Below, piece by piece: positions 1 to 25,688 of a stretch of 25,688 bases of DNA. This stretch comes from a virus. Position 1 is the stretch's first letter. Each line of letters opens with the position of its first letter. The position numbers and the translations under genes are program-made. The notes beneath the pieces are model-generated. The model was not told the DNA's origin, did not search any database, and was given only the letters and a program-made list of their open reading frames with translations. Location of the stretch: the IMG/VR virus record IMGVR_UViG_3300010166_000003, positions 1-25,688 of that record, one strand, 5' to 3'.

Positions 1-227
1 CAGCCATACTTCTCGATTAGATCCATGAACTCCTCGCGAGTCGGAGGCTCTAGCTTGTCTTCTTCGGTTTGGTGACTACGGCGCCATCCCTCCATGCAGC
101 ATGCGAACTGCCACAAGCTCATTCCGTCGACCTCACTAGGGGAGAATCCGAGAACGGCTCCGGATCCATAGATGATGGAGAATCGGAGGCGACCGTCCCA
201 ACGCTCGTCGTTGGCGCCTCGTCCTCT
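1..227 (-). CDS. Tail assembly chaperone, -1 frame extension (T-like part), partial
   Basis: This reading frame is open from the A-run at 227-233 to the window edge. It reads ...GSGAVLGFSPSEVDG-MSLWQFACCMEGW..., ending in EEFMDLIEKYG at base 1. The pattern resembles the second tail-assembly-chaperone gene of HK97-like phages and gene transfer agents (PF09550-like), which acts with the first chaperone on the tape measure. The only ATG is at 120-122, overlapping the upstream stop as ATGA. The chaperone-like sequence seems to begin about 16 codons before that ATG, and no ATG, GTG or TTG lies in frame between 227 and 123. I infer it is made mainly as a -1 frameshift fusion with the upstream chaperone, as with lambda G/GT. 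About 75 codons are visible and the 3' end is outside the window. Confidence 0.75.
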
Positions 228-568
228 TTTTTTGATCGATCACCATCCGGCGGATCTCCCGGAACACCCACGATCGCGCACATGAGGATGGCCATCGCGA
301 TCGGGACGCTTTCTGCAAGAGGACGATCGTCAACGTAGCGTTTGACGAGCGCGGTTGCCTTCGGAGGAATCATTCCTCCGCCGATAAGGCCGACCCGAAT
401 CGGCTCGCGCACATCGTCGACCTTCCATCGCCTAAACTGCAGCCGGTCCATGATCTCAATGAGTCCGGCGCCGCAGGTGTTTTGGATCTCCCGCCACTCG
501 CCCAGGCGAGTTCGAAAGACGTGGTCGCCATCCGCCCAAGTAAGCGTAATCGATCCGTCTTCTGACAT
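119..568 (-). CDS. Tail assembly chaperone (GTA gp10-like, TAC family)
   Basis: A 149-aa protein. Residues 1-105 match the GTA-gp10/Phage_TAC_11 pattern: LTWADGDHVF, LGEWREIQ, a VREPIRVGLIGGGM core, then LVKRYVDDRPLAESV and a helical AMAILMCAIVG end. The family coats or chaperones the tape measure during tail assembly. The last ~35 residues, after SKKEDE, are Ser/Pro/Asp-rich and look disordered, as expected for the unshifted short form of a G/GT-type pair. Its ATG overlaps the stop of the major tail gene (TGATG). The A AAA AAA heptamer at 227-233 lies in its zero frame at codons 112-114. Family call is by pattern only. Confidence 0.82.
   Translation of the reverse strand: MSEDGSITLTWADGDHVFRTRLGEWREIQNTCGAGLIEIMDRLQFRRWKVDDVREPIRVGLIGGGMIPPKATALVKRYVDDRPLAESVPIAMAILMCAIVGVPGDPPDGDRSKKEDEAPTTSVGTVASDSPSSMDPEPFSDSPLVRSTE
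186..233 (-). promoter_or_regulatory. Programmed -1 ribosomal frameshift signal
   Basis: Read on the minus strand, the heptamer A AAA AAA (233-227) is in the correct phase for tandem -1 slippage. A 6-nt spacer, GAGGAC (226-221), follows. Then comes a two-part stem: GAGGCG (220-215) pairs with CGCCTC (191-186), and directly inside it CCAACG (214-209) pairs with CGTTGG (203-198) around a 5-nt loop, leaving a 6-nt bulge GACGGT. Slippage moves the ribosome into exactly the frame of the downstream MSLWQF domain. Heptamer, spacer length and structure are all directly visible; function is inferred. Confidence 0.82.
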
Positions 569-999
569 CAGACGACCGCCACTTCACCGCTGGATGCAAG
601 TTCAAGCTCGACCTGGATTAGACCGTCCTGCTCCCCGGTGATATTGAACGTCGTCATGTGGAACAACCCTTGATAGGTTCGAGCGCCTACGGGGTAGTCG
701 ATCACGACCTGCACGTTTCGAGGATCAACCTGCGAAAAAAACTCTTCGTACAAGTTGAGGCTTTCCTCCGCGAGCGTTCCGGATCCAGACACGCCGGCCG
801 AGATGGCTCCCTTCACGCGCTCGGTCCAAACCGGTGCATCAGGGTCGTCGCAATCCGCGACATTAAATTCGTTCACGCTGGTCGACCGGTTAAACGCTTT
901 GGTCGCGAGCGCGCACGGCGCCGTAAATACTTCCGGCGTTCCACCATTGCCGAGTTTAATTAGTAGCTTGGTTCCCCGAAGGGTCGTCGGTGCGGCCAC
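568..999 (-). CDS. Major tail (tube) protein
   Basis: A 143-aa protein beginning MAAPTTLRGTKLLIKLG, with AFNRSTSVNEFNVADCDDPDAPVW and ending TGEQDGLIQVELELASSGEV. This is the arrangement of the GTA/TP901-like phage tail tube family, which polymerises to form the tail tube. The start is GTG at 997-999, with AGGAG 8 nt upstream in the 11-nt gap after the DUF3168 gene. It lies between tail terminator and tail assembly chaperone, the usual siphovirus order. Length is typical for a compact tube protein. Assignment rests on pattern plus context. Confidence 0.8.
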   Translation of the reverse strand: MAAPTTLRGTKLLIKLGNGGTPEVFTAPCALATKAFNRSTSVNEFNVADCDDPDAPVWTERVKGAISAGVSGSGTLAEESLNLYEEFFSQVDPRNVQVVIDYPVGARTYQGLFHMTTFNITGEQDGLIQVELELASSGEVAVV

Positions 1000-1010: not shown

Positions 1011-1415
1011 CTATGTTGCCGGTTGCGTCAGTGCGCGGAAGGACATTGCGACATGATTCGTCAGACCGTCCGGATCACGAAGGAACCTAGCCTCCTCGAA
1101 ATCGAGAAGGTCTAAGATATGCCCGTCGAGTGCAAGGAAACTTTCGGCCTCGTCGAGCGCCTCGCGTACTTCGCTCGTGATGGTCTTCGCCTCTCCGAAC
1201 CCGTATTCGCGGGACCACACATGCACCTCAAGGAACACTTCGGAGCCGCGTCGACAGTCCTGATTGTCCTTTAGCGTTTGACCTTCGCCGATGGTGATTC
1301 GCGGGAACGGATCGGAATCCGGAACGCGATCGTAAACGCTTGCGCCGGCACCGGTCGATGCAGCCTTAAGCCGGGCGACGAGTGCTTTCTGCAGGGCAAG
1401 CATCGGATCGCTCAT
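1011..1415 (-). CDS. Tail terminator/completion protein, DUF3168 family
   Basis: A 134-aa protein starting MSDPMLALQKALVARLKA. It then reads VYDRVPDSDPFPRITIGEGQ, FLEVHVWSREYGFGEAKTI and ALDGHILDLLDFEEARFLRDPDG, matching DUF3168 (GTA gp9/lambda gpU-like), which caps the tail tube and joins it to the head. The ATG overlaps the stop of the preceding gp10-like gene by 4 nt, suggesting translational coupling. Length and position between the gp10-like gene and the tube gene are as expected for HK97-like phages. Confidence 0.87.
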   Translation of the reverse strand: MSDPMLALQKALVARLKAASTGAGASVYDRVPDSDPFPRITIGEGQTLKDNQDCRRGSEVFLEVHVWSREYGFGEAKTITSEVREALDEAESFLALDGHILDLLDFEEARFLRDPDGLTNHVAMSFRALTQPAT

Positions 1416-2853: not shown

Positions 2854-3417
2854 TTAGATGAACGCGCGATAGTTGTGGATGATGCGATGTACCGAGTGCG
2901 GAGGCTCCGACATGTTATCACCCGAGACAGCTTCTCGGTTGTTATACCAGTGACCGACAAGCATGAGGATTCCGAATTTTAGATCGGGAGGAAACGTGCC
3001 CGCTTCCCACCCGGCTACATAGTCCACTCGCACCGCATTGATAGCATCGACAGTTGCCGGCCAACCTGCCTCGATCGGAATCACCCATCCAGGTTCGTTG
3101 ACATTGTCGAGAACATAGTTATCGGCCGTCAATGTTTGCTCCAGACCGTCGATGTCATCGTACTTGATCGAGGTGATAGAAATCACCGGACCGATATCAA
3201 GGCGGATGTCCGAAGTGGTCGGGAACGAATCTAAGGTCGTGCGATAGGTCTGCGTCGCAAGTGCCCGCTGCGTTTGCTTCTCGATGTATTTCCTCGCCGC
3301 CGAGATCAGGCTTCCGATATGAGCGTCCTCATCGGGATGATCGATCCGAAGGTGCGCCTTCGCCTCAGCAAGGCTAACCGGTTCGACGGCGGGAAAGGTA
3401 ACTGGCTTGGTTGCCAT
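2854..3417 (-). CDS. Head-tail connector protein (HK97 gp6-like)
   Basis: A 187-aa protein. The N-terminus PVSLAEAKAHLRIDHPDEDAHIGSLISAARKYIEKQTQRAL is the classic gp6/phage connector signature. The middle has LDIGPVISITSIKYDDIDG, and the C-terminal helix is FGILMLVGHWYNNREAV. Family members form the ring below the portal. The start at 3417 has AGGAG and GAGGG upstream and overlaps the 3' end of the spike gene by 44 nt. The usual genomic neighbour upstream is the capsid; here a 10-kb adsorption block comes first. Confidence 0.9.
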   Translation of the reverse strand: MATKPVTFPAVEPVSLAEAKAHLRIDHPDEDAHIGSLISAARKYIEKQTQRALATQTYRTTLDSFPTTSDIRLDIGPVISITSIKYDDIDGLEQTLTADNYVLDNVNEPGWVIPIEAGWPATVDAINAVRVDYVAGWEAGTFPPDLKFGILMLVGHWYNNREAVSGDNMSEPPHSVHRIIHNYRAFI

Positions 3418-6400
3418 CCCTCGTGTGCTCCTGTTGTCCCGGCCTTGTGGGCGCCGCGCCCAATGATCCGACTCGTGTTCGTGTCGCTACTCGCGGCGAG
3501 ACATACCACCCGATCGCCGTGCCCGCACCTGTTGCCGTTCCCCGAGCGGCCGCAGTCGATCGTCCAGTGCCACCGGTCGCACCCGCGCCCGCCGCCGTGC
3601 CAACACCGGCCACGATGGTGATAATCGGCGAGATGCCCGGTGCTGTTCCGACGCCCGCCGCTGTGCCTGTTGCGGAAGCCGTGGAGGCGCCTCGACCAGT
3701 CGCGGCGCCAATCCCCGCCACGACGCCGGTTCCGGCCGTGGTGGCCCGTCCCTGGGCCGCCGTGCTGCCAATGCCGGCCGCCGTGCCAACACCGGAGCCA
3801 ATCGTGCCGGCCGTCGATGGTGCCGATGCGGCACCCGCGCCCGCCGCCGTGCCTGTCGCCGCAGCGACTTGCGAACCTGCAGCAACCGCCGCGCCGACAC
3901 CCGGAGCGGTAACCGCCCGTGCCGTTATCGCTTGGCCGCCGGCCGTGCCAGCACCCGCGCCCGCCGCCGTGCCAGGGACCGCCGTCGTTGCCCGACCTGT
4001 CGCCGTTGCCGCGCCAGTGCCTACCGCTATACCGGTTCCCGCGCCTTGCGCCGAGAAGGAGCCGCTGCCAACTGCGGCGCCGACGCCGGCCGCCGTGCCT
4101 TGGCCGATCGCGGTAGATCTACCGGTCGCGGTAGTCGTGCCAATCCCCGCCGCCGTGCCTTGGGCGCTCGTTGTCGCACGGCCCGTCGCATTGGTTGAGC
4201 CTACGCCGGCCGCCGTACCCGCAACGGCCGTCGTTGCTCGCCCGGTTCCTGATGTTGCGCCCGTGCCCGCCGCCGTGCCGGCCCCGGAGGAAATGGTTCC
4301 GGCAACGCTGGATCCGGAAGCTGTACCGGTTCCGCTGGCCGTGCCTACGGCCGCCGTAATCGCGGTCCCGATCGAGACCGTAGCGCCCGTGCCGGTTGCA
4401 GTGCCGACCGCCGCAGTCGGGACGATGTTGACGTTGTCGAATTCGATTACGGCGCGACTATCGGTTTGATAATCTCCCGCGCCGAACGCAACCCTTATAC
4501 GATCAAGAGCAAAGGCCGCCGTTCGGTTATTGATAGCCGTCCAGGTTGAACCATCGGTCGAGTACTCGGCGTATATCGTGCCGCCGCTCTCGCGAAGGCC
4601 GAGGAACTTATGAACGGCCGGGTTGTATGCAATGCTTGACCCGTACGTTACGTAACCACCGTTTTCGTTACCGGACATAAATATTGCGCCGCCGGTAATA
4701 ATAACAAAGTATTGCTGATTTGCATTGTCGTTTGATCTGAGAAATACATAAGCTTCCACCCCGCTTCCTGCGGTGTACTTCTCAAGCTCTATAAAGTATC
4801 GGACCCCGGTAAGGTCCCACCAATCGGTCGAGAAAAATTCGACGTAGGACGTGTCTGCGAAGAGCCGAGCTTGGCCATCGGCAAATTGGTAATCGACAGG
4901 CGAGAACCCAGATCCTAGCGTCCACTTGGCGCTATCAAGGCCCGAGAAGAAGTCGTCCTTAAGAGTGTCGACCTTACGGTAAATCTCCTTTCCGGTTGCG
5001 GCCGCCGCGCCCGTACCACTTGCAGCACCGGCCGCCGCCGAGATTGTACCAGCCGCACTTGAACCGGCTGCCGTACCCGTGCCGGCCGCCGTGCCGATTG
5101 CCGCAGCGCTCGCCGTACTGACCGCAGCCGTGGAACCGACCCCGGCCGCCGAGCCGGCCCGGAATTGAATAGCCCTTCCGACTGCACTCGTAGCGCCAAC
5201 GCCGGCCGCTGTGCCCGGAGAGGATGCTGTTGCGGCGCCGGTTGCTGATGTCGATCCAACACCCGCCGCTGTGCCTGCGGCCGATGAGATTGTTCCGGCC
5301 ACACTCGATCCGGCCGCCACACCCGTACCGCTGGCCGTGCCAACCGCCGCAGTAATTGCCGTGGTGACTGCAGTTCCGCCGCCGACGCCGGCTGCCGACC
5401 CGGCCCGGAACTGGATCGCTGTTGTGGTCGAAGTCGCGGCGCCCGTGCCCGTTGCGGTACCAGCGCTGGCCGCCGTAGACGCGCCCGTTGCGGCCGCCGC
5501 ACCGACGCCGCTCGCCGCCGCTGCGTCCGCTGCGGTTGAAGCTCCGACGCCGCTCGCCGCGCCAACGCCCGAAGCCGCCGCCGCATCCGCCGCAGTCGAT
5601 CGGCCAACACCCGAAGCGGCACCCGATCCGGACGCAGCGCCGACGCCATTTGTCGTCGAGACTGCCGCGCGCTCGATCGCTCCGATATCCGGAGCGGTGC
5701 CCGTATAAGAGATCCCGCTTACGACTGTGCCGGCGTCAACTAAGTCGGAGCCGGACACAAGGCTTAGGAAGGTTGTGGACGGCAGAGATCCGTCCGATTG
5801 CCTAGCACCTTCCGCAGTCGTTGCCGTGAGGCTTACGAAGTCCGCCGAGGATACGGTAAGGCCACCTTGCCACGAGTTCGTCGTTTGAGTGGCTTTGGTT
5901 CCGAGATCGTTGACTCCAGCACCACCGCCCGAGCTTACACTTAGGCAATTCGTAATCGTGTGCGCGCCGGTTGTAACGTCGTCGAGAACGAACTGCCCCC
6001 ATCCGGCTAGGGAATCTCGAATATTCGCGTAGGCCGTGCAGTTGTATAGAAATAGGCCGGCGGAGTTATTCGAGTTTCCATCAAACCCATTCGCCGCGTT
6101 TTCCCACGCGAGACACCTTTTATAGATGTGCCGGCCGTCAACGGAGGTGCCTGTCGCACCACCCATCTTAAAGCCCATGCCATCGCCGAGACGAGTCGTC
6201 CCATCCTCGCCATACCCGTTGCGATAAGCCCAACAATTTTCGAAGGTGACGGCTGCTTCGGTGCCAGAAGTGGTAATGAAGGTATCGAACCCGTCGTCCG
6301 AGTTTCGATAGGATCGGCATCCCTGCAGCAGGTTCCCGGTTCCGAGCGGGCGCGTATAGAAGCCGTCGCCGTTGCTGCCGTCTCCGGCCGAGTCCGCGTT

Positions 6401-8536
6401 GAAGTATGCGTCGCAATTCAGGAAAGTGTTATTTGCCGCGTTGCCCCAAAGGACGAACCCCCACCCCTCGAACTGCGAGCCGAATCCATTGCGATAGGCT
6501 TTGCAGTTTTCGACGATGTTGTTTGATCCGCCGAAAATTAGGAGACCGGCCGTTGGCGCGCGTGTGAACTGAAGTCCGACGAAGTGCAGCCAAGATCCGG
6601 TGACATAGATCAGTGCGCCGTTTTCGGACGAGTCAATATTCGTCAAGCCGTTGCCGTCGAAGATCGGCGTCTCGCCCGGCGCTGGCATGATCACGATAGG
6701 GTTTCCGGGATCCCCGGATCCGCTTACGTTGTCTCGCCCTGAATTGCCTCCGCTGTAAGTGTACGTCCCCCCTCTGCAATAGATGGTCCGGAGGCCCGTC
6801 GAATCGGCCTCAGCGACCGCCCGGCTAATCTTCCGGAACGGAGACGCAATGCTGCCGGTGCCCGTCGAGTCATTCCCGGTCGGGGAAATATAAATGATCG
6901 CGGTCGCTGGACTTGCGCCACTCGCCGACCCGCTACCGCTTGCGACACCCGCACGTGATGCGATGCTGGTAGGGATAACCGATCCGTTGCCGGTCCCGCC
7001 GCCTACGCCCGCCGCTGTGCCAACGGCAGATATAGCAGTCGGAACCACACGCTCGAATGCGCCGAGATCCGGAGCGGTGCCGTAATAGGTGATGCCCGAA
7101 ATCGGCGTGCCGAAGTCGATTAGATCCGACCCCGGCACGAGTTGCATGAACGTCGTTATAGTCGGCAGAGATCCGTCCGACTGACGGGCAGCCGTCGCTT
7201 GGGCGAATGCGGTGATGGATGAGAAGTCGGCCGCAGAAACAACCCGTCCGCCCTGCCACGAGTTGGTGGTCTCGACGACCTTCGAGCCAAGGCTCAGTAT
7301 TCCGGCGTTGCCGTTCGTCCGGACAGCAAGATTATTGGTAAGCGTGTGGGTGCCGGATGTGAAATCGTCCATGACGATCTCGGCCCACCCAGCTGATGCG
7401 TCTCGAATATTTCCGAATGCGGTGCAATTATATAGGAAGATTCCCGCCGATGTATTGCTGTTTACATCGAATCCATTCGCCGCGTTTCGGAACGAAAAAC
7501 ATTGCTTATAGACGTGTCGACCGTTGACGGCGGTCCCGGAGGAGCCGCCCATTTTAAAGCCGTTGCCGTCTCCTAGGCGGGTCGTACCGTCTTCCGCGTA
7601 CCCGTTTTCATAGGCCCAACAATTCTCAAAGGTCACCGGCGCTTGCGTGCCGGATACCGTCATATATGCGTCGAATCCATCGTCCGAGTTTCGATAGGCG
7701 CGGCAATTGCGAAGGATGTTTCCGGTGCTCGTCGGCCGCGTATAGAAGCCGTCTCCGTTACCGCCCGTGCCGGCTGTGTCTCTGTTGAAGTAACCGTCGC
7801 AGTTCAGGAGAAGGTTATTGCCGGACGCGCCCCAAATGGCGAAGCCCCATCCTTCAAATGCGGAACCGAAGCCGTTGCGATATCCTTTGCAGTTCTCAAT
7901 GATATTGTTAGAACCGCCCTCGATCATGATCCCGGCGGTGGGCGCACGTGTAAACTCAAGACCTTTAAAGTGAAGCCATGATCCAGTGACGTAGATCAGT
8001 GATCCATTTTGGGACGAGTCGAAGTTCGTTAGGCCGTTGCCGTCAAAGATCGGGACTTCGCCGGGATAGTTTTCTATCTTGATGCGGGCGCCGGACGATC
8101 CCGAACCGGTAACGTTATCTCGGCCAGTTGTACCGCCGCTGTAAGTGTATGTGCCTCCCCGGCATAGGACGGTATCGCCAGCAGCCGAAACCGAAACGGC
8201 CTTGGAGATCTTGCGATACGGAGCGCCGATCGCTCCGGTTCCGGTCGTATCATTGCCGGATGGAGAGATGTACCGAATCGTGCCGCCGGTCGTTGCCCCC
8301 GTAGCGCTCGCGGCGCCTACGCCAGCCGCCGTGCCAGCCCGCGCTATGGTGGCCCGGCCAGTCGCCGCCGCAGCGCCTACACCGGCCGCCGTGCCTACGC
8401 TGCCCGCGCCGGCCGTGGCGCCGGTTGCTGCGGCCGAGCCAACACCCGCCGCCGTTCCAACCGCCGCCGTTACGCCTCCAGCCCCCGCCTGAGTTTGCGC
8501 GGCGCCTTGGAGGAGTGGGCCAAACCATACGAGCAT
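3374..8536 (-). CDS. Giant tail spike/fibre with two PL9-like beta-helix domains
   Basis: A 1720-aa protein, probably an adsorption spike and candidate polysaccharide depolymerase. Layout: residues 1-85 Gly/Ala-rich repeats; ~87-495 right-handed beta-helix 1 (ISPSGNDTTGTG start); ~496-545 linker; ~547-950 beta-helix 2 (ISPTGNDSTGTG start); ~950-1184 GTAAGVG-type repeats; ~1184-1372 jelly-roll/LamG-like segment (DDFFSGLDSAKWTLGSG ... FDNVNIV); ~1373-1672 more repeats; ~48-residue basic tail. Both helices keep DDGFD (285-289 and 747-751) and GxGFKMGG with Lys328 and Lys790, resembling the Ca-binding and catalytic sites of pectate lyase family 9. Key positions are offset by exactly 462 residues, showing a tandem duplication. 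ATG at 8536 lies 3 nt after the previous stop. Confidence 0.85.
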   Translation of the reverse strand: MLVWFGPLLQGAAQTQAGAGGVTAAVGTAAGVGSAAATGATAGAGSVGTAAGVGAAAATGRATIARAGTAAGVGAASATGATTGGTIRYISPSGNDTTGTGAIGAPYRKISKAVSVSAAGDTVLCRGGTYTYSGGTTGRDNVTGSGSSGARIKIENYPGEVPIFDGNGLTNFDSSQNGSLIYVTGSWLHFKGLEFTRAPTAGIMIEGGSNNIIENCKGYRNGFGSAFEGWGFAIWGASGNNLLLNCDGYFNRDTAGTGGNGDGFYTRPTSTGNILRNCRAYRNSDDGFDAYMTVSGTQAPVTFENCWAYENGYAEDGTTRLGDGNGFKMGGSSGTAVNGRHVYKQCFSFRNAANGFDVNSNTSAGIFLYNCTAFGNIRDASAGWAEIVMDDFTSGTHTLTNNLAVRTNGNAGILSLGSKVVETTNSWQGGRVVSAADFSSITAFAQATAARQSDGSLPTITTFMQLVPGSDLIDFGTPISGITYYGTAPDLGAFERVVPTAISAVGTAAGVGGGTGNGSVIPTSIASRAGVASGSGSASGASPATAIIYISPTGNDSTGTGSIASPFRKISRAVAEADSTGLRTIYCRGGTYTYSGGNSGRDNVSGSGDPGNPIVIMPAPGETPIFDGNGLTNIDSSENGALIYVTGSWLHFVGLQFTRAPTAGLLIFGGSNNIVENCKAYRNGFGSQFEGWGFVLWGNAANNTFLNCDAYFNADSAGDGSNGDGFYTRPLGTGNLLQGCRSYRNSDDGFDTFITTSGTEAAVTFENCWAYRNGYGEDGTTRLGDGMGFKMGGATGTSVDGRHIYKRCLAWENAANGFDGNSNNSAGLFLYNCTAYANIRDSLAGWGQFVLDDVTTGAHTITNCLSVSSGGGAGVNDLGTKATQTTNSWQGGLTVSSADFVSLTATTAEGARQSDGSLPSTTFLSLVSGSDLVDAGTVVSGISYTGTAPDIGAIERAAVSTTNGVGAASGSGAASGVGRSTAADAAAASGVGAASGVGASTAADAAAASGVGAAAATGASTAASAGTATGTGAATSTTTAIQFRAGSAAGVGGGTAVTTAITAAVGTASGTGVAAGSSVAGTISSAAGTAAGVGSTSATGAATASSPGTAAGVGATSAVGRAIQFRAGSAAGVGSTAAVSTASAAAIGTAAGTGTAAGSSAAGTISAAAGAASGTGAAAATGKEIYRKVDTLKDDFFSGLDSAKWTLGSGFSPVDYQFADGQARLFADTSYVEFFSTDWWDLTGVRYFIELEKYTAGSGVEAYVFLRSNDNANQQYFVIITGGAIFMSGNENGGYVTYGSSIAYNPAVHKFLGLRESGGTIYAEYSTDGSTWTAINNRTAAFALDRIRVAFGAGDYQTDSRAVIEFDNVNIVPTAAVGTATGTGATVSIGTAITAAVGTASGTGTASGSSVAGTISSGAGTAAGTGATSGTGRATTAVAGTAAGVGSTNATGRATTSAQGTAAGIGTTTATGRSTAIGQGTAAGVGAAVGSGSFSAQGAGTGIAVGTGAATATGRATTAVPGTAAGAGAGTAGGQAITARAVTAPGVGAAVAAGSQVAAATGTAAGAGAASAPSTAGTIGSGVGTAAGIGSTAAQGRATTAGTGVVAGIGAATGRGASTASATGTAAGVGTAPGISPIITIVAGVGTAAGAGATGGTGRSTAAARGTATGAGTAIGWYVSPRVATRTRVGSLGAAPTRPGQQEHTRDGNQASYLSRRRTG
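3520..4415 (-). repeat. GTAAGVG-type low-complexity repeat block
   Basis: The C-terminal third of the spike encodes roughly 15-20-residue degenerate repeats built on (G)TAAGVGAxxxTGRATTA. A second block lies at about 4985-5690, and short ones flank the first beta-helix. The nucleotide sequence is dominated by GCC/GGC codons, which is why long open frames also appear on the opposite strand. These blocks probably act as spacers or shaft segments between globular domains; that role is inferred. Confidence 0.8.
5690..8280 (-). repeat. Tandem duplication of a ~400-aa beta-helix domain
   Basis: Two coding blocks inside the spike gene (about 7050-8280 and 5690-6900) encode clearly homologous beta-helices. 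Each runs from IxYISPxGNDxTGTG to a GTAPDxGAxER end, with the same internal order of motifs (YTYSGG, FDGNGLT, GSWLHF, EGWGF, SDDGFD, GFKMGG, NSWQGG, ARQSDGSLP). The offset between equivalent residues is constant at 462 aa where checked (DDGFD and the GFK lysine), so there are few or no indels between the sites compared. Divergence at many positions shows the duplication is not recent. Confidence 0.85.
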
Positions 8537-11998: not shown

Positions 11999-13126
11999 CT
12001 ATCCGTTTACTTCCCGCGCTTCGCGAGCCACTAGAGATCTTACGATAGGCACAAGGTCGATGGCGTGACTAGAGCCGTTTGACATTCCGATCACCAGGAC
12101 CCCCGCATCGACCGTAATGCTATCGATGCTCGTTCCGGCGGGACCACTGGGACCGGCGGGACCCTGCACGCCGGCCGATCCGCGCTTGCCACGTGTCGCG
12201 CTCATGCGCCAGCCCTCGCCCGGACACGGTCCGGGATCATCGCGCACCGCTCGAAACTCGCCTCCGTCAAGCGACACGATATCGAACTTGCCATAGGTGC
12301 GAGTCGCATCGAATAGGCCGCAGACTTCGCCCTCACGCGCATCTCGGCCATCGCGTCCGTCGTGGCCGGCCGCCGCCACAAGAAACCAATCGCCATCAAC
12401 ACCGCCCGGTTCTCTGGCCGTATCACAGCACGCTTGCCAAAGCGATCCGCCGTGAGTCGCGAGATCGCCGGCATAGGAGATAGCGCCGCCTCTCCAGTGA
12501 GTCGCGGAGCGGAGTTGCCCCATCGGTCCAGCTTCGCCGCGCTCGCCTTGTGCCCCGCGCTCGCCCATAGGACCCGGCTCGCCCTGCGGACCCGCTAGGC
12601 CGGCTTCCCCGCGCTCGCCCGGTACACCGGCCTCCCCACGCTCGCCGGCCGGTCCAGGTGCCCCCGCATCGCCGCGTTCGCCCTTCTCGCCGGGCGGACC
12701 GGCCTCGCCCCGTGCTCCAGGAATGCCTTCTGGCCCAGCCTCGCCACGTTCACCGGCCGGTCCTGCCTCCCCGCGCTCGCCCCGCTGCCCCGGCTCACCC
12801 GGCCAACCACGCTCACCTTGCGGACCGGGATCACCGGGCGCACCCGGAGGCCCGGCCTCGCCATCCTTAACCCGCGCTTCTACATCGCGCAGATAACCGC
12901 ACAGTTCATCAAACTCCCGCCGCATGATCTCGCGCGCTTCGGCGTGCGCTGCCTTGCACTCGGCTATTGCCGCAGCAGCCTCGGCCGCTATCGCCCGGCG
13001 CTCGGCTGCCCAAGTATGCTCGTTCCGAGCAATGATCTCGCCTAGAGCATCGGCGAGTGCCTCATCCGGCGACATGATGGCGCCGCGCCGCTTCGCCGAG
13101 AAGTTGCCGCCATGACCGTCCGCCAT
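11999..13126 (-). CDS. Collagen-like phage protein with binding-module-like C-terminus
   Basis: A 375-aa protein. Residues 20-86 are helical and likely coiled-coil ([39 protein letters not shown]). Residues 89-203 are about 38 uninterrupted Gly-X-Y triplets rich in GER and GEA (DNA about 12518-12862). Residues ~207-310 hold two YxxGDxxxxxGSLWxA-like segments ([33 protein letters not shown]) reminiscent of carbohydrate-binding modules. A short second collagen patch follows, and the end is beta-rich. The start at 13126 has GAGGA 8 nt upstream and overlaps the portal gene by 65 nt. Likely a trimeric fibre. Confidence 0.85.
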
Positions 13127-14471
13127 CCGTGTTTTCCTCTTCGTCGCCCTCGGCCGGCGGTTCGTCCTCGTCGTCGTTGGCCGGCGCTGGAGGCGCGGCC
13201 GGCGGACCGGGCGCTGCCGGGATCTTTCCCGCCGCAGACAGCGGGACGACCTGCTGTTGCACGCGCGGCTCTTCGCCATCCGGACCCACTGACGGCAAGC
13301 CTTCCTCGCGACGAGCTTCGTTCGGCGACATGATTCCGCCAATGGTCGCCTTCGCGAGTCCTTCAATCCGCTCCTTGAATGAGGAACGCAGGAGCGCAGA
13401 CGTATTAAATTCGAGGTACTCGTCCGGTTGCCCCCTCAGTTCGAATAGGTTTCCGATCGATTCCTCGATGTGGTTAAGCATAAATCCAAGACCGCTCGCG
13501 TGCCATTGCCTCATCAGAGCTTCGGTCGACGAATAAGTTTGCCCCCCGATCCCCAGGATGGCCAACGGGATGCGATAGACGAGCGCGACCGCCTGATCAC
13601 TGATCTTCAATATTTCGGCAAGCTGCGAGTCGACTGAATTTTGCGACCATGGAACAGGCTTTATCCCGGATGTCAGGATAGGCACGCCGCCGGTCGCCAT
13701 GTCCTTCGACTGCTCTTCCCAGCGAGCGCGAAGGTCCATGACCTGATTTGCGTCTAGCGTGAGATCTGTCGACAGAACCGCGCTCGGCCGCCCGCCATTC
13801 TGGAAGAATGCCATCTGTTGCCGCTTCATAGTCGACGACAGGCCGGTGTCCATCACGGCGGCTAGAAGCGGCGTCTCCCCGATCAAGGGATTGCGACGGC
13901 AGTGCAATCTAACGTGTAATACATCCCGCTGTGGAACCGCAGATAGTGTGCCGGGCGCGAACATCCGATCCACCACTTCATTCCCGGCGAGCGCATAAAA
14001 GATGGATCCATCTTGCGCGATCCTTCCGGAGCATGACCGGGACCGCATAAGGTGAAGTTCCTGGATCTCGCCGCGTCCATTGCGCACGGCCAAGGCGAAG
14101 GCGTTTCCATCTTCCAGAAGCTCCCTCGTGCAGTTCAGAAGGAAGTCGGAGATCGACTGATACGAGTTCGGCCGTTTGAGGATCCTCGTCAACGACGAGG
14201 CCGTGACTCGCTCGCGGCCGCCGTTCTCAAGCGTTCGCCAATGGTCTCCCGGACACATCGCGATCGTTTCGGCGTAGGCGCCAACGCAAGCCTGCACGAT
14301 CGCGGATCCGGCGCCGAAGGGAAGTGGATCGTACCCGTTTTGCCAGAAGTTCCAGGCGCCCCACGAAGCCGGCAACCATCCTCCGGAAACCTCCCAGGGT
14401 CCGGGACGATACGAACCTTCGGCAGCTTTCACCGCCGAAGGCCGGAAGACTTTGGAGAGCCAGCGGATCAT
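13062..14471 (-). CDS. Portal protein, HK97 family
   Basis: A 469-aa protein with the HK97-type portal pattern: [85 protein letters not shown], and [35 protein letters not shown]. It forms the dodecameric vertex through which DNA is packaged. The last ~70 residues are Pro/Ala then Asp/Glu-rich ([14 protein letters not shown]), longer than in HK97. It starts directly after the TAA of the 121-aa gene. It lies downstream of the capsid gene, the reverse of the usual order. Confidence 0.93.
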
Positions 14472-14904: not shown

Positions 14905-16857
14905 TTACCAAGTCACGCCAACAATCGTCTGCACCATGCCGGTGCGGCGCATTGCCCACGACACATCGAGGAGCATGCGGATCGCGATCTGCGCCGTCTG
15001 GAACATCGACTGCACGGGCGCCGCGACGACGGTCGGGGTTCCGGTTGTACCAATCTGCAGCGGAGTCGTGTCTTCCATATGCAGCGTTGCCTCGTTCGAA
15101 ATCTCGAACTCGGGAACGTCACCGGTCGCCGTAACGAAGTCTTCCGCATCGATCATGATCACGGTTCCGGCCGCAATCGCCGTCGACGTGAGAACGCCGA
15201 AACGGTTGACGACTGGATCCGCCCAGCCAAGCTCGCCGCCCGAGTTCGGAGTCAGCGCAAGCGAGAGTTCCTGCGCGGGGTTCATCAGGAGGATAAGGTT
15301 TGCGCCTGCGTTGGCCGTGTCGAAGGGAGCACGAAGCTTCTTGATATCGCCCAGGATGGCCGCCTGTCCGCCGCCAGCCGTTGCCGTAAGCGGAGTGACA
15401 CCGTTCGTCAGTCCCGCCGGGCGCACCGTCGAGCCGGCCGTAGCGTCCAGCAAAAGGCTATCGAGCGTGATCGCCGTGTCCGCAAGGATCTCGTTGCGGA
15501 GGAGCGTCTCGATTGCCGGCGTTCCGTAACGCGCGATTTCCCGAGAGAAGACGGAAAGAACACCCATCTTTTTCGGCGAAAGCGTAACGGACGTGAGTCC
15601 GAGACGCCGAACCGGGATCGGCGCACCTTCGCCGATGAACGATCCGCCGATTGATGGAGTGGCTGCCCGAGATGGAATCTTGATCGCACCGGCATTCGGA
15701 CCGAATGCAAGGCGCCCGCCGCCCGCCGCCGCAAGGCCGGGATAAACCGACCTGGGACGCAGGGTTTCGAGGAACTCTCCCATGGCCGTATTGACAAGCT
15801 CGGCCGCCCATCCGGCCGCCGTTGTGGTCGCACCGGCAACGGCCGCCTTCGTGATCATCGCAACGTTTGAGTCGTCGGGGTACATCTTGTTAAGGATGTC
15901 CTCCTCGCTCTTGTTCAGGATGCTTGCCATCGCATGCACGGCCATCCTGCGGACGATCAGATCGACGCCGGTTGACTTGCGTCCGGCCGTTGCAAAGACG
16001 CGGCCGCTTGTTTCCATGCCTCCGCCAGCCGTAGCTGCAGGCGCACGGACAAGTGCGCTCCCGGAGGCAAGGCGCTCCTCGGCCTTCTTGAGCGAGTCAT
16101 GCGTCTGCTGTGCCGCTTCGATGCGGTCGCTTAGCTCGTTGATCGCCACTGCGGCTGCCGGGTCGTCCGACGTTTCTGCCGACTTCGCGACTTCGGCCAC
16201 AAGCTGATCGCGCAGCGCATTCAAACGCGCCTCAGCCTCTTTAATGCGTTCTGCTAGGGTCATCTTAGGTCGATCCTTTGGGGGTTGCGTTACTTTCGGA
16301 TCGGCCGTCTTGCCGGGGATATTCCGTAAAGCCATGATGCCCGCTTGATCTCCAGCAAACTCGCCGAAGACGAGACCTTGCGTGCCTTCCGATACGTGCA
16401 TTGTCTTAGCAACAGCTAAGGCATTCGGATTTGCAGGAATAGAGACAAGGCTGCACTCTAGCAATTCCGATTTTGTGAAGCGCAGTCCGGCCCAGGGTTC
16501 TTTCTCGTCGATTGCCTCGGCCTTCAAAGGCCGGAATCCTACCGACACTGCGCGAAGCACGCCGGCCTCAACGAGCGCGATGATTTCGTCGATACGTTCG
16601 GATATGCCTCTCGCGACGAGTTCGAGCCGGCCGAGAAGTTTTCCCTTCTCGACGCGCACGTTGCGCCAGTGCCCGATCGGAAAATTGCTGTTGTGGCCAA
16701 AGAGCGCGATTGGGTTCTTTTTGAAATCGGTTAGATCCCATCCCTTTACGTCGATGATATCCCCATAGCGGTCTACGGAGTCGTCCGACATCACGTACTC
16801 AAGGGGATCGCCTTTTTCGCTGGCTCGAATCGTGTACTTGCGAACGATGTCGTTCAT
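14905..16857 (-). CDS. Prohead protease-major capsid protein fusion (HK97 type)
   Basis: A 650-aa protein. Residues 1-165 are a HK97-family prohead protease (SDDSVDRYGDIIDVKGWDL, LFGHNS with His54, LRAVSVGFRP with Ser105, LLECSLVSIPANPNAL). Residues ~199-275 are a charged coiled-coil like the HK97 delta/scaffold domain (LAERIKEAEARLNALRDQLV). Residues ~310-650 are the HK97-fold capsid protein (IKIPSRAATPSIGGSFIGEG, LRNEILADTAITLDSLLLDA, ending MRRTGMVQTIVG). HK97 itself uses two genes; fusions are known in other phages. AGGAG precedes the ATG, 10 nt after the terminase stop. Met199 is a possible internal start. Confidence 0.93.
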   Translation of the reverse strand: MNDIVRKYTIRASEKGDPLEYVMSDDSVDRYGDIIDVKGWDLTDFKKNPIALFGHNSNFPIGHWRNVRVEKGKLLGRLELVARGISERIDEIIALVEAGVLRAVSVGFRPLKAEAIDEKEPWAGLRFTKSELLECSLVSIPANPNALAVAKTMHVSEGTQGLVFGEFAGDQAGIMALRNIPGKTADPKVTQPPKDRPKMTLAERIKEAEARLNALRDQLVAEVAKSAETSDDPAAAVAINELSDRIEAAQQTHDSLKKAEERLASGSALVRAPAATAGGGMETSGRVFATAGRKSTGVDLIVRRMAVHAMASILNKSEEDILNKMYPDDSNVAMITKAAVAGATTTAAGWAAELVNTAMGEFLETLRPRSVYPGLAAAGGGRLAFGPNAGAIKIPSRAATPSIGGSFIGEGAPIPVRRLGLTSVTLSPKKMGVLSVFSREIARYGTPAIETLLRNEILADTAITLDSLLLDATAGSTVRPAGLTNGVTPLTATAGGGQAAILGDIKKLRAPFDTANAGANLILLMNPAQELSLALTPNSGGELGWADPVVNRFGVLTSTAIAAGTVIMIDAEDFVTATGDVPEFEISNEATLHMEDTTPLQIGTTGTPTVVAAPVQSMFQTAQIAIRMLLDVSWAMRRTGMVQTIVGVTW

Positions 16858-21431: not shown

Positions 21432-22247
21432 TTAGAACTTAAGGCTCAGGCTGGCTTTGACAATGTCCAAATCGTTGTCGAAGTTCACGGGTACGTCACC
21501 GATCCCCTCTCCGCCGTTTACCGTTACCTCGTTGTCGCCAAGGAACACGTGCTGATATTCGAGGCCGACGATCCATGCACCACGTCCGGCCGTGCCATCC
21601 GTGAGCGCGTACTGGATGCCTCCGCCGATCGTCCATCCGGTTTGCCAGTCACCGCCGGCCCAGCGACCATCCTCGTCGATGCGGCCGCCCGCTATGTCGA
21701 AGCCTACCGCGTTCTCGACATCGGCGAAGGCGATACCGCCGATCGCGTAGACGAGTCCGCGATCGAATGCAAGGCCCGCTTTCAGCCGTGCTGTCGCCAG
21801 CCAGTTGACATCGGTTTCCAGGAAGGCGGTTGCGTCGAAAGCTCCGCCGGCCGTGTTGACGTTTACGTCGATCCGATCTTCGCCATTGATTCCGGTGTAG
21901 GCAACGCCAAGCTCGCCGCCGAGCACGAAGGATCCGAACTGGTACTGGTATCCGGCATTGATGCCGAGCAAGCCTCCGCCGCTCCACCAATCGCCAACGG
22001 CCACACCGATGTTCGCGAGCGGTCCCTCAGTCTCCGGATCGTCGTCGTCGATATCGAAGTTTGCATTCGCATCGGACCGGCCGATGCCGTATCCGGCGTC
22101 GATCCCGACATAGAATCCCGTCCACGAAAACCCGGCTGGGATGTAGACCTGTTGTGCGACCGGCTCGGTGTAGACCGGAAGATCGGCAGCCATCGCGTTG
22201 CCGGCGAAGAGCGCGAGCGCGGCGCTCGCAAGAATCGTCCTCATCAT
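21432..22247 (-). CDS. Omp25/Omp31-like outer membrane beta-barrel protein
   Basis: A 271-aa protein. A clear signal peptide MMRTILASAALALFAGNAMA is followed by ADLPVYTEPV. The body has the rhizobial Omp25/31/RopB pattern: FSWTGFYVGIDAGYGIG, WSGGGLLGINAGYQYQFGSFVLGGELGVAYTG, WLATARLKAGLAFDRGLVYAIGGIAFADV, TGWTIGGGIQYALTDG and WIVGLEYQHVFLG. It ends in a strand with terminal Phe (IVKASLSLKF) as outer-membrane barrels require. AGGAGACGAC precedes the ATG at 22247. It has its own terminator and lies opposite to the early operon, as expected for a moron. Likely role: changing the lysogen surface or blocking superinfection (inferred). Confidence 0.88.
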   Translation of the reverse strand: MMRTILASAALALFAGNAMAADLPVYTEPVAQQVYIPAGFSWTGFYVGIDAGYGIGRSDANANFDIDDDDPETEGPLANIGVAVGDWWSGGGLLGINAGYQYQFGSFVLGGELGVAYTGINGEDRIDVNVNTAGGAFDATAFLETDVNWLATARLKAGLAFDRGLVYAIGGIAFADVENAVGFDIAGGRIDEDGRWAGGDWQTGWTIGGGIQYALTDGTAGRGAWIVGLEYQHVFLGDNEVTVNGGEGIGDVPVNFDNDLDIVKASLSLKF

Positions 22248-22273
22248 GTCGTCTCCTGTTGCGGCCCCATGCA

Positions 22274-22287
22274 TTGAGCCGACTCAA
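22274..22287. promoter_or_regulatory. Small palindrome upstream of the outer-membrane gene
   Basis: TTGAG-CCGA-CTCAA, a perfect 5-bp inverted repeat with 4-nt spacer, lies 26 nt upstream of the outer-membrane protein ATG. It could be an operator or a 5' UTR hairpin. No convincing -35/-10 pair was found around it. Confidence 0.35.
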
Positions 22288-24020: not shown

Positions 24021-24384
24021 CATCGAAGGAGCGGCCGTCCCGAAAGGATGGCCGCCCTCCTACTTCCTCCCGAAGGATGGTGCTCTGCGTCTGCAAGGTT
24101 ATCACCAGAAACGGAATATTGAGACCGCAGAGAATGCCCCCGATGTTCCGGAAGAAGTACGGCCCGAGCTTGACCCCGCGAGTTCTCGCACGGTCGACCG
24201 TCGCATGTGCAGACCATCGCCACGTGATGCTTTTGCGACTATGCCAGGAAAGATGGAATGACCGCCTAACGTTAGTCCGGCCGAATGTAAGCGCGCCGAT
24301 TCTCATCGATTTTCCCTCTTCGCCGACTGACGTTCGGCAGCCACCACATCGAAGGAGCGGTCATCCCCGGAAAGGATGGACGCC
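24011..24384 (+). repeat. Imperfect direct repeats flanking a gene-poor 240-bp segment
   Basis: CGCCGACTGA followed by CATCGAAGGAGCGG and a GGAAAGGATGG/CGAAAGGATGG hairpin half occurs at 24011-24056 and again at 24321-24384. The second copy has a 16-nt insertion after the first 10 bases. Copy 1 spans the stop of the winged-helix gene; copy 2 spans the end of the methyltransferase gene. The enclosed segment 24061-24302 has no convincing gene. An open frame of 100 codons (24004-24306, minus strand) overlaps the methyltransferase stop and ends in copy 1, but it lacks a recognisable domain. Confidence 0.6.
24031..24055 (+). terminator. Hairpin after the winged-helix gene
   Basis: GCGGCCGTCC pairs with GGATGGCCGC (10 bp, one G-U) around a CGAAA loop, starting 11 nt after the stop. 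No T-run follows (CCTCCTACTTCC), so it is a weak or rho-assisted terminator. A related sequence recurs inside the 3' end of the methyltransferase gene. Confidence 0.55.
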
Positions 24385-25631
24385 TTTCCCGTGAACTCCT
24401 GCCATCGCCGAACCGTGACATCCACATACAAAGGATTGATCTCGATCGCGATGCACCTTCGATGAACCTGCTCGGCCGCGATGATGGTTGTTCCGGAGCC
24501 GCAGAAGGGATCATAGATCCAATCGCCGTTCCTGCTGTTGTTCTCGATCGGCCGCCGCATGCATTCGACAGGCTTCTGCGTCGAGTGCCCGGTCTCCGAC
24601 TTTTGAGGTTTGTCGATTTCCCAAACGGTCGTCTGATCGCGCGCGCCGTTCCATCCGGACTTTCCGCCTTCGCGCACCGCGTACCAGCAGGGTTCGTGCT
24701 TCCAATGGTAGTCGCCCCGACCGATCGCGAAATGGTTCTTTGCCCAAACGATATGCGCGCGTATCTCAAACCCGCAGGACTCAATCGATTGCTGGACGCA
24801 ACTAGCATGCCGACCGGCATGCCACACGTACGCCACGTCGCCCGGAAATAGCGCCCAGGCTTCGCGCCAATCCGCCCGGCCATCATTCTCGACCTTGCCC
24901 ACTGCACGGCCGCCGTGGTCCTTCCCGTCCGACCGGACGGCTCTGTTTCGCCAGTCCGCATCGTACTCGACCCCGTATGGAGGATCCGTCACCATCACTT
25001 GCGGCCGATCCTGTCCCATCATTCGATCGACAAACACGCGATCCGTGCTGTCGCCGCAGCCGATTCGGTGCCCGTCTAGCTCCCATATCTCGCCCGGCTC
25101 GGTAATCGGGACTTCTGCAGGTTCGGGCGCGTCGTCCGGATCCGTGAGTCCCGGCTCGGCAGTCGTGTTGCCGGTCAGCATCTCGTCGAACTCTTCGGCC
25201 GTGAACCCGGTCAACCCGATGTCGAACCCGACGCTGTTTAGTCCGAGCAGTTCATTAAACAATTTCTCGTCGTTCCAACCGGCGTTCAACGCGAGCTTGT
25301 TGTCTGTGATCACGTAGGCGTCCCGTTGAACCTTCGTCCAACCCCGCGCGAACATCACCGGGACCTCCTCAAACCCAAGCTGTCTCGCCGCCAATAGGCG
25401 CCCATGCCCCGCGATCACCGTGCCATCCTCGTCGACCAGAATGGGGTTCGTAAATCCCCATTCCCTCATCGATGCGGCGATCTGCGCAACCTGATCGTCG
25501 CTGTGCGTCCGGGCATTGCGCGCGAACGGCACAAGCGATCCAACCGGCCGCATGACAATCTCCGTCGCCGGCCAGTGCGCCATCTGTGCCTTCCGAGCGG
25601 CATCGGCTGCGCTTATTTTGATCCTGGGCAA
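24303..25631 (-). CDS. ParB-like nuclease domain-DNA methyltransferase fusion
   Basis: A 442-aa protein. Residues ~25-120 form a ParB/Srx-like domain (LVPFARNARTHSDDQVAQIA, VDEDGTVIAGHGRLLAARQLG). Residues ~180-420 form an N6-adenine/N4-cytosine methyltransferase: EIWELDGHRIGCGDS, catalytic DPPY at 216-219, GHSTQKP at 348-354, and AdoMet-binding DPFCGSGTT at 374-382. The DPPY-before-FCGSG order and middle target-recognition region indicate a beta-type arrangement. Start is TTG at 25631 with AAGGGGG 6 nt upstream. Such fusions are common in phages and may protect DNA from host restriction or modulate packaging; no partner restriction enzyme is present. Confidence 0.93.
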   Translation of the reverse strand: MPRIKISAADAARKAQMAHWPATEIVMRPVGSLVPFARNARTHSDDQVAQIAASMREWGFTNPILVDEDGTVIAGHGRLLAARQLGFEEVPVMFARGWTKVQRDAYVITDNKLALNAGWNDEKLFNELLGLNSVGFDIGLTGFTAEEFDEMLTGNTTAEPGLTDPDDAPEPAEVPITEPGEIWELDGHRIGCGDSTDRVFVDRMMGQDRPQVMVTDPPYGVEYDADWRNRAVRSDGKDHGGRAVGKVENDGRADWREAWALFPGDVAYVWHAGRHASCVQQSIESCGFEIRAHIVWAKNHFAIGRGDYHWKHEPCWYAVREGGKSGWNGARDQTTVWEIDKPQKSETGHSTQKPVECMRRPIENNSRNGDWIYDPFCGSGTTIIAAEQVHRRCIAIEINPLYVDVTVRRWQEFTGKASILSGDDRSFDVVAAERQSAKRENR

Positions 25632-25688
25632 CTTGATCCCCCTTTCTAAAATCGCGGAATAGATATTTGCACTTGGGGCGGCGGTGTA
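25632..25688 (-). promoter_or_regulatory. Upstream region of the methyltransferase gene, partial
   Basis: The minus-strand sequence before the TTG contains AAATATCTATTCCG, an AT-rich block that could hold a -10 element, then the AAGGGGG ribosome site. The region runs off the window, so a -35 element cannot be judged. Confidence 0.3.

Follow-up and report, generated by a model that had tools for sequence, protein, structure and literature searches.

The chaperone junction and its neighborhood

The window analyzed here is a 25,688-nucleotide stretch of viral DNA (IMG/VR virus record IMGVR_UViG_3300010166_000003, positions 1 to 25,688) that carries a head and neck cluster of the usual HK97 type, consisting of terminase, an apparent protease-capsid fusion, portal, and connectors. 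At its first-numbered edge, on the minus strand, genes for a tail completion protein and the major tail tube protein are followed by a tail assembly chaperone gene that overlaps the tube gene by one base (Table 1). The product of this chaperone gene is a member of PF11836 (Phage_TAC_11/GTA-gp10, TAC_11), which it matches over residues 5-97 with an E-value of 1.4e-22 and a score of 80 bits against a gathering cut-off of 27.8, and it also matches phrog_8985 (E 7.7e-39). A second coding frame overlaps the end of the gene, and the junction of the two frames is the subject of this analysis. The junction adjoins the PF06199 gene upstream; its tape measure side lies beyond the window edge, but the tape measure is the next gene in annotated relatives, where the order is major tail protein, chaperone, C-domain, tape measure.

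Table 1. Coordinates of features at and near the chaperone junction, as positions in the window.
Feature	Position	Strand	Details
Second-frame (-1) C-terminal domain of the predicted long form	1..227	-	75 aa in window; open frame
ATGA overlap	119..122	-	ATG codes for a conserved Met inside the -1 domain (VDGMSLWQF); GAGG 8 nt upstream
Short tail assembly chaperone (0-frame gene)	119..568	-	149 aa; ATG 568, TGA 121-119
Putative stimulatory stem	186..220	-	Outer 6 bp 220-215/191-186, inner 6 bp 214-209/203-198; MFE fold includes both
Bulge of the stem	192..197	-	6 nt
Loop of the stem	204..208	-	
Spacer, heptamer to stem	221..226	-	6 nt
Slippery heptamer A_AAA_AAA	227..233	-	Phase permits -1 slippage; read as codons TCA AAA AAA GAG
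Major tail (tube) protein, upstream neighbor	568..999	-	PF06199 E 2.3e-17; phrog_1407
Tail completion gp17-type protein	1011..1415	-	PF11367 E 7.9e-28

The initial annotation proposed that a complete -1 frameshift signal joins the two frames, and each element that it described is present. In the frame set by the ATG at 568, the minus strand around the heptamer reads ...GAT CGA TCA AAA AAA GAG GAC GAG GCG CCA..., which divides the run at 233-227 as A_AAA_AAA, within TC[A AAA AAA] GAG, in the phase required for -1 slippage. Beyond the 6-nt spacer, GAGGCG-CCAACG (220-209) pairs with CGTTGG (203-198) and CGCCTC (191-186), and 12 of the 12 pairs in these two 6-bp stems are Watson-Crick. After a -1 slip the frame would read RGRGANDERWDGRLRFSIIYGSGAVLGFSPSEVDGMSLWQFACCMEGWRRSH..., and it runs without a stop from 227 to 3, at the window edge. 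This frame has no start codon between the slip site and the ATG at 122, where the 0-frame stop TGA produces the ATGA overlap. The final two bases of the window, TG, come after a Gly codon (GGC), and several relatives end in ..KYG* or ..RLG*; thus, the -1 frame probably ends one base past the window, and the domain would be essentially complete.

A search of Rfam gave no match, and the stem of the window by itself is no better than shuffled sequence (z -1.17 over 44 nt and -0.13 over 67 nt). The significance of the stem rests on the relatives of the window.

Frame relation in relatives and extent of the second domain

A search with the first domain yielded 12 phage records, six IMG/VR loci, and one Rhizobium genome, and a profile search yielded 563 viral relatives, 80 of which were kept. 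Both domains were placed by HMMs in 95 loci, and 72 loci were left after dereplication at 90% nucleotide identity. The group is composed mostly of rhizobial phages, including Rhizobium phage 16-3. The downstream domain lies in the -1 frame in 69 of the 72 non-redundant loci carrying both domains, and the remaining three comprise two in-frame fusion lineages (L009 and L073) and one locus with a +1 relation (L067). L009 is Rhizobium phage RHph_X2_26, a natural in-frame fusion (near 1820). L073 (near 2330) and L067 (near 2324) both have 10-A runs, for which indels in the A-run and a reversed scheme, with slippage making the short form, are two possible explanations.

The initial annotation described the -1 frame as a chaperone-like domain and proposed aligning it with PF09550-type and GT-type proteins; on PF09550 a correction is needed. 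The domain matches phrog_18467 (E 3.6e-16), as do 64 of the 64 family members. Direct assignment to PF09550 (Phage_TAC_6) was dropped, because neither the domain of the window nor those of 12 family members rose above the gathering cut-off of this family, and they gave no Pfam match at all. When the profile of the -1 domain was aligned by hhalign with that of the PF09550-type second chaperone of GTA-like loci, a single comparison, the two aligned over 46 columns with a probability of 89.7% and an E-value of 1.8e-6, which may reflect a distant relationship. Comparison with solved structures turned up only the chain HeliScrew4, and that weakly.

Homology to the -1 frame in other phages begins at residues 1-12, and the ATG at 122 encodes the Met at residue 36. 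Homology therefore crosses this ATG, as would be anticipated for a frameshift product, and the -1 protein is conserved upstream of any start, with the most conserved columns lying before the ATG at 122. Mean column identity is 0.42 in the -1 frame before this ATG, 0.33 after it, and 0.27 in the 0-frame tail, which ranges from 0 to 68 residues in length among relatives.

These comparisons bear on the alternative that the locus holds two separate genes, with the -1 frame translated alone from the ATG at 122 by termination-reinitiation at ATGA. The ATGA at 122-119 with its upstream GAGG fits such an arrangement, the annotations of 16-3 and other phages show a small gene on its own, and some GTA-type g10/second-chaperone pairs (L100, L101) do have an ATG at the overlap. 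However, a protein started at 122 would lack the half of the domain that shows the strongest conservation (G12, Y20, G21, G23, A24, G27, and P30). An ATG occurs at this position in 36 of the 69 loci, yet the 0-frame stop overlaps it in only 6, the window included; measured against the domain core, this stop lies anywhere between 65 nt upstream and 112 nt downstream. Moreover, there is no ATG, GTG, or TTG from the slip site to the core in 46 of the 69 loci. We consider it very unlikely that the two frames are independent genes. Separate initiation at 122 had also been suggested as coexisting with frameshifting; the overlap and GAGG that prompted the suggestion are there, but such initiation is unlikely to carry functional weight, because the Met encoded by this ATG is internal and conserved, and the overlap is found in only 6/69 loci. 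Since GAGG stands 8 nt upstream, initiation at 122 may occur at a low level; it is not the conserved mechanism, and its product would be half a domain.

Slippery sites and a coevolving stem

An in-phase slippery site is found in 69 of the 69 loci with a -1 relation, 69-99 nt before the domain core (LGFSP). The sites fall into four classes: G_GGA_AAR (37 loci), A_AAA_AAN (13 loci), G_GGG_GAR (15 loci), which was recognized from the alignment though it is documented elsewhere, and G_GAA_AAR (4 loci), which was added post hoc on meeting loci without a standard site. When G_GAA_AAR is left out, sites remain in 65/69 loci, and the canonical G_GGA_AAR and A_AAA_AAN classes alone account for 50/69. 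As background, 22 of 6694 sites within the body of the upstream genes carry an in-phase motif of one of these classes, from which a site would be expected by chance in a 60-nt interval for ~6% of loci, compared with the actual 69/69. The nearest relative (L002/L019, 63% identical) has G_GGA_AAA where the window has its A-run, and both there and in the window the slip site stands 9 nt past the last -1-frame stop. Both the place and the function of the slippery site are maintained in the 69 non-redundant relatives.

Folding downstream of the site follows the same pattern of conservation. The mean folding z of the 55 nt downstream is -1.53, and that of control stretches is -0.41 (Mann-Whitney p 3e-8). 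In 66 of the 69 loci, pairing starts 4-8 nt after the heptamer. We also performed an arm-swap test, in which the 5' and 3' arms of the stem were exchanged among phages and pairing energies were compared. Mean energies were -18.7 kcal/mol for a phage's own arms and -14.0 kcal/mol for foreign arms, and none of 20,000 permutations was as good; the same test at control offsets of -240, -180, -120, -80, and +70 nt gave no effect. Because own arms pair better than foreign arms, the stem must have been kept by selection via compensating change. The conservation of the stem in related phages, which had been put forward as a check on the proposal, is therefore established across the 69 loci.

The composition of the sites and the placement of the stem also speak to transcriptional slippage, in which the A-run would cause RNA polymerase to slip and a portion of the transcripts would carry the fused frame from the outset. 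The window has a run of 7 A, poly-A runs can serve both mechanisms (PMC3711429), and the 10-A runs of L067 (+1) and L073 (in frame) look like run indels, yet the A-runs quoted for transcriptional slippage are longer than 7 (PMC3711429), and the RNA stem coevolves at ribosomal spacing. Furthermore, 52 of the 69 relatives have G_GGA_AAR or G_GGG_GAR, which are codon-phased. Because most relatives thus carry mixed G/A sites and not long homopolymers, we judge this explanation to be extremely unlikely. A sequencing error or decayed gene, with one true frame split by an indel, might be suspected from the single continuous frame in two lineages (L009, L073) and is refuted, leaving it a negligible chance, because the -1 relation and the site are common to 69 non-redundant loci from many separate assemblies.

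Programmed frameshifting as the most probable reading

With high confidence, we assign the junction to programmed -1 ribosomal frameshifting of the lambda G/GT type, the mechanism favored by the initial annotation; the frame relation, sites, and stem of the relatives support it, and a fusion protein is predicted from the sequence. Most ribosomes would read the gene at 568-119 to its stop, producing the 149-residue PF11836 chaperone. A minority, pausing at the stem (220-186) while two lysine tRNAs occupy A_AAA_AAA, would move back by one base and go on in the -1 frame to make a fusion of ~189 residues. This long form would very probably consist of the first 114 residues of the short form joined to a small conserved C-terminal domain. 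Tail-chaperone frameshifting is textbook knowledge, and its original survey is reportedly that of Xu, Hendrix and Duda in 2004. By analogy with lambda G/GT (PMC5009743), the rare long form may link the tape-measure protein and tail-tube subunits in tail assembly, it and the abundant short form may both be required for building tube subunits around the tape measure protein, and the ratio of short to long would be set by the efficiency of slippage. In E. coli, A_AAA_AAA is less shift-prone than A_AAA_AAG (PMC5009743), which counts against a frameshift at the site of the window.

Relation to known frameshifts and gene transfer agents

The lambda G/GT frameshift is widely conserved in long-tailed phages (PMC5009743), and the junction described here has the same position after the major tail protein. 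The lambda-type G_GGA_AAR (PMC5009743) is also the commonest site among the relatives of the window. In contrast to lambda, the N-domain here is PF11836 (GTA-gp10), the slip site of the window is A_AAA_AAA, and the coevolved stem begins 4-8 nt downstream. The G_GGG_GAR sites of 15/69 relatives, at the homologous place, recall the GGGGGAA 'fivetwo' motif of the SEA-PHAGES collection (PRFect, PMC10885494), whereas the window's own site is of the canonical XXXYYYZ type. The same argument, based on a -1 frame that is open in all relatives and a conserved slip motif, has been made for the Vandenendeviridae (phage Adele), which differ in being myoviruses of another phage group with a GTTTTT motif (PMC12846349).

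The two chaperones of the gene transfer agent RcGTA offer a further comparison, at the level of domains. Chaperone 1 (g10, PF11836) has its N-domain family in common with the window, and chaperone 2 (PF09550-type) shows a distant profile likeness to the second domain, with a probability of about 90%. Unlike the junction of the window, the two RcGTA chaperones are described as separate genes. Likewise, a paper from 2024 that sets 16-3 and vB_MseS-P1 beside RcGTA assigns the downstream protein a gene of its own and nowhere uses the word frameshift (PMC11409702).

None of the phage records that we examined, 16-3 included, annotates a joined coding sequence for the long chaperone. In these records the C-terminal domain is either cut at an internal start or absent, the latter in NV1.1.1 and ppBeUSDA76-1: 16-3 p016 is annotated from a start within the domain, and nothing is annotated at this place in NV1.1.1. 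What is added here is a family-wide, unannotated frameshift signal in relatives of GTA tail chaperones. With it, the gene models of such phages can be corrected, including that of Rhizobium phage 16-3. The 69 sites, with four heptamer classes and coevolving stems, also form a natural set for studying the trade-off between slip site and stem. The finding further bears on the derivation of GTAs from phages, since GTAs carry these two chaperone modules in the form of separate genes.

The GTA-type PF11836/PF09550 pairs themselves differ from one another (L100 and L101 versus L106, L109, L114, L123, and L126; locus ~1400-1520). In some, such as L100 and L101, two GTA-like loci that were inspected, the second chaperone has an ATG of its own at an ATGA overlap, which sets them apart from the window; in others no start codon precedes the second domain, which lies in the -1 frame. 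Candidate slip sites occur in the pairs lacking starts, such as G_GGA_AAG in L126. C_CCU_UUY heptamers in GTA-type loci were set aside as independent evidence of slippage, because they overlap the PF residues of a conserved PFPW motif.

We regard it as a doubtful, though conceivable, extension that a frameshift-fused chaperone is ancestral to the entire PF11836 branch, which runs from rhizobial siphophages towards the GTAs, with some GTA pairs still shifting and others split. If this were true, GTA pairs without a second start (for example, L109, L114, L123, and L126) would still frameshift, L100 and L101 would represent a split into two genes with an ATGA start, and a phage recoding signal would have been lost from GTAs in the course of domestication.

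Other features of the window

Several further minus-strand genes of the window deserve mention. The ORF at 3374-8536 encodes a 1720-residue protein whose N-terminal repeats are of low complexity and rich in A/G/T and which also has beta-helix domains of the pectate-lyase-like type (PF22842, PF13229). This tailspike-like protein sits between capsid-side genes and the head-tail adaptor, not after the tape measure, a location that is unusual for its kind. Collagen-like triple-helix repeats (PF01391) are encoded at 11999-13366; the ORF as called overlaps the portal gene, and its true start is probably further in. At 14905-16857, the prohead protease and major capsid protein are apparently fused in a product of 650 residues (PF04586; phrog_617). 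An ORF between phage genes at 21432-22274 encodes a signal peptide followed by MAADLPVYTEP...GFSWTGFYVG and had no Pfam or PHROG match; it resembles a rhizobial outer-membrane porin-like protein and is perhaps host-derived. Lastly, the ORF at 24303-25688 joins a ParB-like domain to a DNA N6/N4 methyltransferase (phrog_498 E 1.8e-141; PF01555).
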